DNA from: an uncultured Thiothrix sp.
GTDB taxonomy: Bacteria; Pseudomonadota; Gammaproteobacteria; Thiotrichales; Thiotrichaceae
Reading direction: 5' to 3'
Length of the DNA: 64,000 bases
Assembly (NCBI RefSeq): GCF_937873765.1
Contig: NZ_CALMZC010000016.1
Span: 1-64,000 of the forward strand
The notes beneath the pieces were generated by a model. It was not told where the DNA came from. It searched no databases and saw only the letters and a list, made by a program, of their open reading frames with translations. Positions 11,203 through 57,117 of this stretch are shown here, piece by piece; positions within the stretch are counted from its first letter, which is position 1; each line of letters begins with the position of its first letter. The position numbers and the translations under genes are program-made.

Positions 11203-11784
11203 TTAGTGTTTCACCAAACCAGAGAAGCCCATAAAGCTGAGTGCCATCAAACCTGCTGTGACTAAACCAATTGCATTGCCTTTGAATACAGAGGGAATGT
11301 CAGCCACTACTAAACGCTCACGGATACTTGCAAACATGACCATGACTAAGGTGAAACCTAAAGCACCACCCATGCCATAGAGAGCAGATTCAATAAAACC
11401 ATGCTGCTTTTGCACATTAAGTAAAGCTACGCCTAAGACTGCACAATTGGTGGTAATTAATGGTAAATAAATACCCAGCACATTGTGCAAAACGGGGCTA
11501 GATTTACGCACGACCATTTCAGTAAAACCGACAATCGCGGCAATCACTAAAATAAAGCTTAAAGTACGCAAATACTGCAAGCCCAAAGGTTCTAGCAACC
11601 AAGTATCTACTAGATAGCTACTAATAGAAGATAGGGTTAAAACAAAAGTTGTGGCTAAACCCATGCCAATCGCGGTTTCAAGCTTACGCGATACCCCCAT
11701 AAATGGACAAAGGCCAAGGAATTGGGAGAGGACTAGGTTATTCACCCAAACGGTGCCAACAATAATCAGCAAGTAATCAGTCAT
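11203..11784 (-). CDS. rnfA: Rnf electron transport complex subunit RnfA
   Basis: This 193-residue membrane protein has about six spans and contains [18 protein letters not shown] and [14 protein letters not shown], which hold the conserved cysteines of RnfA/NqrE. It is the first gene of the minus-strand cluster rnfABCDGE-nth-DUF1841. Every junction is overlapping or within 1 base, so the eight genes very probably form one transcript. Confidence 0.95.
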
Positions 11785-11904: not shown

Positions 11905-12011
11905 TTGATAATATGTTGCAGTGCAGTATCTTTTAAATTATTATTGATCCTGAAGCGTCTTACGCTTCAATATCCTCCTAGCGGTTGGGCATCATTAAGA
12001 TGCCCTTTTTT
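11905..12011 (+). ncRNA. Candidate small RNA with its own promoter and terminator
   Basis: TTGATA (11905-11910) and TATCTT (11927-11932) are 16 bases apart and would start transcription near 11939. The predicted ~73-nt RNA has a hairpin (TGAAGCG-TCTTA-CGCTTCA, 11951-11969), then a single-stranded CCTCCT at about 11974-11979 that is complementary to Shine-Dalgarno sequences. It ends in a Rho-independent terminator, GGGCATC-ATTAA-GATGCCC plus six T (11987-12011). No protein gene on the plus strand lies upstream to use this terminator. The layout is that of a trans-acting sRNA that blocks ribosome-binding sites. The promoter call is the weakest part. Confidence 0.5.
11987..12011 (+). terminator. 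Rho-independent terminator of the candidate sRNA
   Basis: A perfect 7-bp stem GGGCATC/GATGCCC with an ATTAA loop is followed directly by TTTTTT on the plus strand. Read on the minus strand it lacks a T-run, so it does not serve pdxA or rnfA. Confidence 0.75.
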
Positions 12012-12022
12012 AACGTCAGCAT

Positions 12023-13015
12023 CTAGTGCTGAGCACGTCCTAAGCCAATTGCTAGTTGAATGGCTGCTTTCAAACTTCCAGTTTCTGCTTTGCCCGTTCC
12101 AGCTAAATCGATGGCTGTACCATGATCGACTGAGGTACGGATAATCGGCAAACCTAGGGTAATATTCACTGCTTTACCAAAGCCTGCATACTTAAGTACG
12201 GGTAAGCCTTGATCGTGATACATGGCTAAGACCGCATCGGCTTGTTGCAGATTACGCGGAGTAAATAAAGTATCGGCGGGTAAGGGCCCAGTTAGATGCA
12301 AGCCTTGTTGTTGTAGTTGACGAATGGTCGGAATCAGTACCTCGATCTCTTCCATCCCCAAATAGCCACCTTCGCCGGCATGCGGATTAAGTCCACAGAC
12401 TAAAATGCGTGGCTGTTTAATGCCAAATTTAGTCCTCAAGTCTTGATCAAGAATCTTTAATACCTTGCGTAATAAAGGGGCAGTAATCGTTTCACTGACC
12501 TTATTTAAAGGTAGATGCGTAGTCGCTAGGGCAACGCGTAAATTACCACTAGCCAGCAGCATCACGGGTAGTGGTGTATCCGTAAGTTCTGCTAAGAACT
12601 CGGTATGCCCAGTGAAAGGAACACCAGCTTCATTAATAATGCCCTTATGCAAGGGGGCAGTCACCATCGCAGCAAATTCACCGGTTTGACAACCCAAGGT
12701 AGCACGCTTTAGCAGTTCTAGCACATAAGCGGCATTGCGACTATCCAAACTACCGGGAATCACAGGCGTAGCACAAGGGATAGGCAGGACAAATAGCTCA
12801 CCTTGTTTACAAGGCTCTTGTGCTTGATCCAGTGTATAAGGGCGTAAACGTACTGATAGGTTTAATAAACGCGCCCGCGCCCGCAACATTTCAATATCAG
12901 CTAGGGCAATGACATCTTCTGCCCAATGCGTTTGACTAGCTAACTGCAAGACTAAATCAGGGCCAATACCTGCAGGCTCGCCAGTGGTCAGAGCCAGTCT
13001 TAACCTATTATGCAT
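12023..13015 (-). CDS. pdxA: 4-hydroxythreonine-4-phosphate dehydrogenase
   Basis: This 330-residue enzyme oxidises 4-phosphohydroxythreonine in the pyridoxal 5'-phosphate pathway. Family landmarks are TTGEPAGIGPDL at the N-terminus, TAPLHKGIINEAG, GHTEFLAE, GLNPHAGEGG and the metal-binding YHDQGLPVLKYAGF, then VDHGTAIDLAG. ATG 13015 is preferred over ATG 13021 because AAGG lies 6 bases upstream of it. It follows surA closely, as in E. coli. Confidence 0.93.
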   Translation of the reverse strand: MHNRLRLALTTGEPAGIGPDLVLQLASQTHWAEDVIALADIEMLRARARLLNLSVRLRPYTLDQAQEPCKQGELFVLPIPCATPVIPGSLDSRNAAYVLELLKRATLGCQTGEFAAMVTAPLHKGIINEAGVPFTGHTEFLAELTDTPLPVMLLASGNLRVALATTHLPLNKVSETITAPLLRKVLKILDQDLRTKFGIKQPRILVCGLNPHAGEGGYLGMEEIEVLIPTIRQLQQQGLHLTGPLPADTLFTPRNLQQADAVLAMYHDQGLPVLKYAGFGKAVNITLGLPIIRTSVDHGTAIDLAGTGKAETGSLKAAIQLAIGLGRAQH

Positions 13016-13032
13016 AAGCATCCTTTGAGGAG

Positions 13033-56755: not shown

Positions 56756-57117
56756 TGGTGGAGGCGGGGGGAATTGAACCCCCGTCCGCAAATCCGCTGC
56801 TTGAAGGCGCTACATGCTTATTCAATCTTTTGTTTAACCCGCATCCCGCCGATTGACAGGCTGGCTTGCAGGCTGTTTCAGTTTGGGTTTAGCGCTTTTG
56901 CCCTGAACAAACGTAAGCGCGATCTTATGTTAGATGATGCCTGAAACTCGAACGCATAAGCACGGCCTCGGTCAGACAGCTATCGGCAGGTTATTAAGCT
57001 GCGAGAGCGTAAGAGTCGTCGTTTGCGACTATTTTTTGTGACTAGTGTTTAAGTGGTCACCACACCCACTGCATGCTCCCCAAGTTTTGTAACCCACGTC
57101 GAAGCCATGTCGCCCCC
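56756..57117 (-). ncRNA. ssrA: Transfer-messenger RNA (tmRNA)
   Basis: The 362-nt RNA begins GGGGGCGACATGGCTTCGACG and ends in a T-arm with GGGTTCAATTCCC and an encoded CCA. The two ends pair as the acceptor stem (GGGGGCG with CGCCTCC). The tag frame starts at GCA 57026 and reads ANDDSYALAA before tandem TAA stops. It rescues stalled ribosomes and marks the peptide for proteolysis. It is one-piece, and its 3' end hosts the mobile element. Confidence 0.95.

Follow-up and report, generated by a model that had tools for sequence, protein, structure and literature searches.

A conserved anti-Shine-Dalgarno small RNA of the Thiotrichaceae with a predicted PhaR operator at its promoter

Here we describe a small RNA (sRNA) gene of about 61 nt in the window, a 64-kb stretch of DNA (64,000 nucleotides) from a member of the Thiotrichaceae. 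Its product is best read as a trans-acting anti-Shine-Dalgarno (anti-SD) sRNA that would be repressed by PhaR and would block ribosome-binding sites upon accumulation of polyhydroxybutyrate (PHB), a reading to which we assign a probability of about 0.72. Sequence and comparison establish the predicted gene and its structure, the constancy of its seed and its distribution across the family; motif match and co-occurrence are the grounds for the putative PhaR operator on its promoter. As a PHB-sensing repressor, PhaR would hold the sRNA promoter down until PHB granules titrate it away and the sRNA is made; the 13-nt seed CCUCCUAGCGGUU, exposed between a 5' hairpin and a terminator, would then pair with selected mRNAs at their Shine-Dalgarno region and block ribosome binding. 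In Thiothrix, the phasin mRNA, itself the product of a PhaR-repressed gene, is a likely target, which would create a loop like that of PhaR, MmgR and phasin in Sinorhizobium.

Structure and distribution of the gene

The gene is predicted to occupy positions 11951-12011 of the plus strand, its start being placed by promoter spacing, where that strand carries no protein gene. Two open reading frames of the minus strand flank it, rnfA (11203-11784) divergent on its 5' side and pdxA (12023-13021) convergent on its 3' side, and both are neighbours in many relatives. The 5' hairpin (11951-11969) has an 8-bp stem, TGAAGCGT/ACGCTTCA, with a CTT loop, and is separated from the terminator by the single-stranded stretch ATATCCTCCTAGCGGTT; the minimum free energy structure leaves unpaired the seed CCTCCTAGCGGTT (11974-11986), whose 5' part is the anti-SD motif CCTCCT (11974-11979). 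The Rho-independent terminator (11987-12011), GGGCATC-ATTAA-GATGCCC-TTTTTT, consists of a 7-bp stem (GGGCATC/GATGCCC, 11987-12005) and a run of six T residues (12006-12011). The minimum free energy of positions 11938-12012 is -24.2 kcal/mol, whereas shuffled sequences average -11.8 (z -5.1) and none of 200 shuffles was as good. An earlier note on this DNA had proposed a hairpin, an exposed CCTCCT and a terminator here, and sequence and folding bear out the positions of all three.

The same RNA was recovered across the Thiotrichaceae by BLASTN and by a covariance-model search, in which the window sRNA was hit at 5.1e-18, a rough E-value since the model was trained with this sequence. Counting as a copy the core CCTCCTAGCGG together with a T-run, it is present in 46 of 63 Thiotrichaceae genomes and in seven of eight genera, including Thiothrix and Thiolinea; a tally of 61/63 was rejected, as it takes in terminator-only hits, and two loci (L111, L112) with no proper promoter or terminator were excluded. 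The sequence CCTCCTAGCGGT is identical in all 62 collected copies, the T that follows it is kept in 61 and the flanking bases vary, part of this identity being by construction because the copies were gathered with the 11-mer core. The 5' hairpin is rebuilt in relatives from unlike sequences (GGGTCAG/CTGACCC, GATCAGG/CCTGATC and others), the terminator has compensatory changes at six of eight pairs, and stem lengths vary freely, which speaks against a coding sequence. Stems and CCTCCT are both kept in close relatives, and such conservation strongly supports the earlier reading of an sRNA with an anti-SD seed. Recurring across the family with compensatory stem changes, the predicted gene is, on comparative grounds, genuine, and an exposed CCUCCU with a conserved extension is how an sRNA that prevents ribosome binding is built.

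Two types of copy were distinguished by their neighbours. Type-1 copies are bordered at their 3' end by a convergent pdxA and at their 5' end by a divergent rnfA if that gene is present, while type-2 copies are convergent to nqrF (named from its sequence) at the end of the Na+-NQR operon, and are found in Thiothrix, genus g4 and four genomes of the Thiolinea group. Many Thiothrix genomes hold both types. We also observed paralogous copies bearing a PhaR box that are convergent to nqrF (L088, L089, L093, L102-L104, L118-L121, L029, L097, L098 and L100), the other copy standing beside rnfA/pdxA; both locations are near related Na+-pumping or electron-transfer operons.

No copy with the core was found in the seven genomes of genus g7, some of which have PhaR. 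At one g7 locus (L117, around G020:C1:4240535-4240607), TCTCCTCCTGGATAGC is followed by a terminator, possibly a divergent relative. As a separate observation, for genera g5 and g8 an alignment (L060, L092, L096, L099, L101, L106, L107, L108, L110, L114, L059 and L021) predicts that the sRNA forms a pseudoknot in its 5' part, with a fully covarying outer stem and an inner stem, the invariant loop ATGGGTAT pairing with ATACCC directly 5' of the seed; this predicted pseudoknot could gate the seed. In Rfam 15, the window element has no match at the gathering score or at E up to 5, and nothing covering the sRNA was found in the loci of eight relatives at E up to 1. A literature search with the core sequences found no paper, nor was a described sRNA found in the literature for filamentous sulfur bacteria. 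Elsewhere, the window carries an ordinary tmRNA gene (56756-57117, minus strand).

The promoter and the putative PhaR operator

The promoter pair TTGATA-16-TATCTT put forward in the earlier note is a 9/12 match, of which a scan finds four against 3.2 expected; being at chance level and not kept in relatives, it is probably the wrong promoter. We infer instead a sigma-70 promoter, TTGCAG-17-TATTAT (11916-11944, plus strand; -35 at 11916-11921, -10 at 11939-11944), which puts the predicted start where the hairpin begins, at about 11951, and which is the better candidate because TATTAT or TATGAT is kept immediately 5' of the hairpin in the nearest relatives (L002, L003 and L005). Its -35 element falls inside the 21-mer ATATGTTGCAGTGCAGTATCT (11911-11931), a putative PhaR operator that has the palindromic core TGCAGTGCA (11917-11925) and agrees in full with the PhaR consensus WNWD2NYGCRNYGCRNH2WNW. 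This consensus was determined in Sinorhizobium meliloti, where binding of PhaR to several promoters, including that of mmgR, has been demonstrated by EMSA (PMC12542648). The 21-mer is the single match in the 64-kb window, and about 18 matches occur in 1.19 Mb of the genome.

The source genome has a gene for PhaR (PF07879, 107.7 bits), adjoined by a phasin gene with two PhaR boxes upstream. In the part of this genome that was sampled, strong boxes were also found, among other places, at phaB and at genes read from their sequences as putative acyl-CoA ligase, acyl-CoA dehydrogenase and PEP carboxylase; the genes with strong boxes are, as expected, what a PhaR regulon should hold, as far as their predicted identities go. 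Across the family, 25 of the 28 genomes that have both PhaR and the sRNA carry one or more copies with a box in the preceding 150 nt, and none of the 18 that have the sRNA without PhaR do (Fisher p 5e-10), compared with a background of 4% of random 150-nt windows; this association is partly explained by ancestry, because the box-bearing copies come from only three genera (g1, g2 and g4). The sRNAs of the PhaR-encoding genomes G012, G017 and G018 are without a box.

Promoter layouts vary among the copies. In L029, L097 and L098 the box takes up the whole spacer separating the -35 and -10 elements of a TTGATT/TATAAT-type promoter, which likens them to S. meliloti mmgR, where a dyad also lies between these elements (PMC8401924). 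An ECF-sigma-like motif, GAAC-N16-18-GAC, precedes 19 of 21 box-less copies of Thiothrix type 1 (L004, L006-L008, L010, L035, L036, L039, L043, L045 and L051-L053) and of genus g3 (L011, L015, L023, L028, L054 and L058, with the motif upstream of the core); its strict form occurs 27 times per 35,700 random windows. RpoE/AlgU was considered as the sigma factor for this promoter and rejected, the motif being absent upstream of rpoE.

Candidate targets and competing explanations

Within a 400-kb stretch of a Thiothrix genome (G082) that was picked for containing the phasin gene, no other start region among 244 genes pairs as well with the seed as that of phasin. The start regions of 15 Thiothrix phasin genes pair with a mean of -16.9 kcal/mol, which is matched by 6 of 200 seeds with a shuffled extension; for 18 cydA genes of Thiolinea and Thiothrix, one of 200 such seeds pairs as well as the real one, and over all G082 genes 141 of 200 do, the real extension having no preference there, though the shuffle test overstates independence because the target genomes are related. 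In the source genome, where the ranking covered about 1.2 Mb plus the window, the seed pairs best with moaA (-25.6 kcal/mol), the gene for a 167-aa exported protein taken from its sequence for DsrE-like, an aldo/keto reductase gene, and cydA (cytochrome bd). The cydA pairing is common to the source genome and T. eikelboomii, of which strain ATCC 49788 (L235) is the nearest cultured relative. That of moaA is the best in the source genome but is lost in relatives, and moaA was rejected as a conserved target, as was rpoE/algU, whose pairing is not conserved.

Judged from predicted pairing, cydA is the best-supported candidate target in the source genome, with moaA the strongest unsupported one. 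The phasin mRNA is a putative target in Thiothrix with moderate confidence, and cydA in the source genus with weak to moderate confidence. Since the phasin of the source genome does not stand out (its start-codon pairing of -9.2 kcal/mol is about the middle of all genes, and it was rejected as a target there), the reading that we favor is of a PhaR-controlled anti-SD sRNA whose targets would be phasin in Thiothrix and cydA in the source genus. A pattern search also returned a near-perfect seed site in the leader of a putative soxY (L130, G000:C60:4529-4542), where AGCCGCTAGGAGGA, before a 49-aa open frame, is complementary to the whole seed with one G-U pair.

The RNA might be a real anti-SD sRNA and yet take its main input from redox state or respiration, given its Rnf/Nqr neighbourhood, with PhaR minor or lineage-specific and with respiratory targets such as cydA. 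Most copies in g1, g2, g4 and g5 adjoin rnfA, pdxA or nqrF, the cydA pairing in Thiolinea and Thiothrix beats 199 of 200 shuffled seeds, and promoters in other lineages are without a PhaR box; however, no redox-regulator site was identified, the neighbours differ in genera g3, g6 and g8, and the window promoter carries the full PhaR consensus, which leaves this explanation unlikely. The redox or growth control that the earlier note drew from the neighbouring genes is replaced here by an input through the predicted PhaR site, and its redox side may still hold, given the copies next to rnfA or nqrF and the candidacy of cydA as a target.

We regard it as quite improbable that the RNA is a broad modulator of translation, its CCUCCU end mimicking the tail of 16S rRNA and pairing with strong SDs or with 16S rRNA itself rather than with specific targets. 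CCUCCU is indeed the same as the anti-SD, and GCGGUUGG, which lies 3' of it in the sRNA, presumably resembles the 3' strand of helix 45 of 16S rRNA, so that window positions 11974-11994 would hold two elements that we take to occur, in swapped order, in the 3' end of 16S rRNA. KsgA methylates helix 45, and in E. coli ksgA presumably follows pdxA. The seed extension AGCGGUU, however, is as well conserved as CCUCCU, and phasin and cydA stand out against the G082 genes as a whole, for which shuffled extensions were as good. Hardly credible at all is an explanation with no plus-strand RNA gene, in which a minus-strand cis element between pdxA and rnfA, either a pdxA terminator or a leader peptide with its SD (AGGAGG), accounts for the region: the minus strand does read AGGAGGATATTG, in which an SD-like run precedes a TTG codon, but the T-run is on the plus strand in the relatives examined, neither start codon nor frame is kept on the minus strand, and no rnfA lies downstream of the copies next to nqrF or at other loci. 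With conserved frame and T-run both absent, leader peptide and pdxA terminator were rejected.

Comparison with known systems and significance

The PhaR-repressed anti-SD sRNA proposed here resembles the MmgR/alpha-R8 RNAs (MmgR of S. meliloti, SisA-D of Caulobacter) in being a compact RNA with a hairpin, a single-stranded anti-SD core and a terminator (PMC8401924, PMC12542648, PMC12559287), and further in the PhaR (AniA) operator that the motif predicts in its promoter, in a possible link to phasins, and in the multiple copies with separate promoters found in some genera. MmgR is a 77-nt, Hfq-dependent, PhaR-repressed RNA that lowers phasin levels (PMC8401924, PMC12542648), and the alpha-R8 family is defined by a 10-nt single-stranded UUUCCUCCCU between hairpin and terminator (PMC12559287). 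The window RNA has this architecture of hairpin, single-stranded stretch and Rho-independent terminator, and the 21-mer at 11911-11931 is a predicted PhaR site of the mmgR type; an Hfq gene is present in the source genome, and phasin start regions are complementary to the seed in Thiothrix, not in the source genome. Unlike alpha-R8, it has the core CCUCCUAGCGGUU, and the alpha-R8 core occurs in none of the 62 collected copies; the host belongs to the Gammaproteobacteria, the RNA is about 61 rather than 77 nt long, and there is no Rfam or sequence link to MmgR. With the alpha-R8 core absent and the architecture and putative operator present, the window RNA would work like MmgR without being a member of its family, the likeness being due either to convergence or to very old descent.

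Other anti-SD RNAs are comparable in part. NmsRA and NmsRB of Neisseria meningitidis expose an anti-SD between stem-loops and pair with SD regions of metabolic mRNAs, but they have three stem-loops of their own, two anti-SD sites and TCA-cycle targets, and no PhaR site is seen in the portion of their description considered (PMC5362039). The rhizobial SmelA075 and SmelA099 likewise keep an anti-SD motif while their stems vary (PMC3927594); theirs is CCUCCUCCC, placed in hairpin loops in three or four repeats, whereas the window RNA has no such looped repeats and a single CCTCCTAGC between two stems.

Weak covariance hits outside the Thiotrichaceae brought to light another anti-SD RNA, in which CTCCATCCTCCTTTGGTGGTT precedes a GC-rich terminator. 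Of 369 genomes sampled from the class it occurs in 72, and of 271 genera in 55, the reversed control pattern giving 0 matches; its loci (L391-L420, e.g. L393:1501-1521 and L410:1501-1521; also G007:C23:43224) include tandem copies in L398 and L400, and no Rfam family was found at it in the loci scanned. Of 34 copies, eight are preceded by a PhaR-type core box (binomial p 6e-5, with 4% as the background rate), and only two of these eight match the full 21-mer. In another gammaproteobacterium, CCTCCT and a terminator lie between the 3' end of a putative phaB and a convergent phaR (L077:1534-1571).

What is new here is an undescribed sRNA family in filamentous sulfur bacteria, with a named likely regulator and candidate targets, and the predicted PhaR site on its promoter in the source genome suggests a link between carbon storage and translation. 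Tentatively, and at somewhat under even odds, PhaR may control anti-SD sRNAs in both Gammaproteobacteria and Alphaproteobacteria through RNA families without a recognisable shared core, the CTCCATCCTCCTTTGGTGGTT family included, in a circuit built repeatedly that would couple stored carbon to the translation of storage and respiratory genes. Our findings suggest that the rhizobial circuit of PhaR, an anti-SD RNA and phasin also exists in a second class, built there on a different RNA; this would make a direct test of repeated origin possible. The exchange of promoters (PhaR box, ECF-like or neither) before an unchanging seed amounts to a natural experiment in which the input changes and the output is kept.
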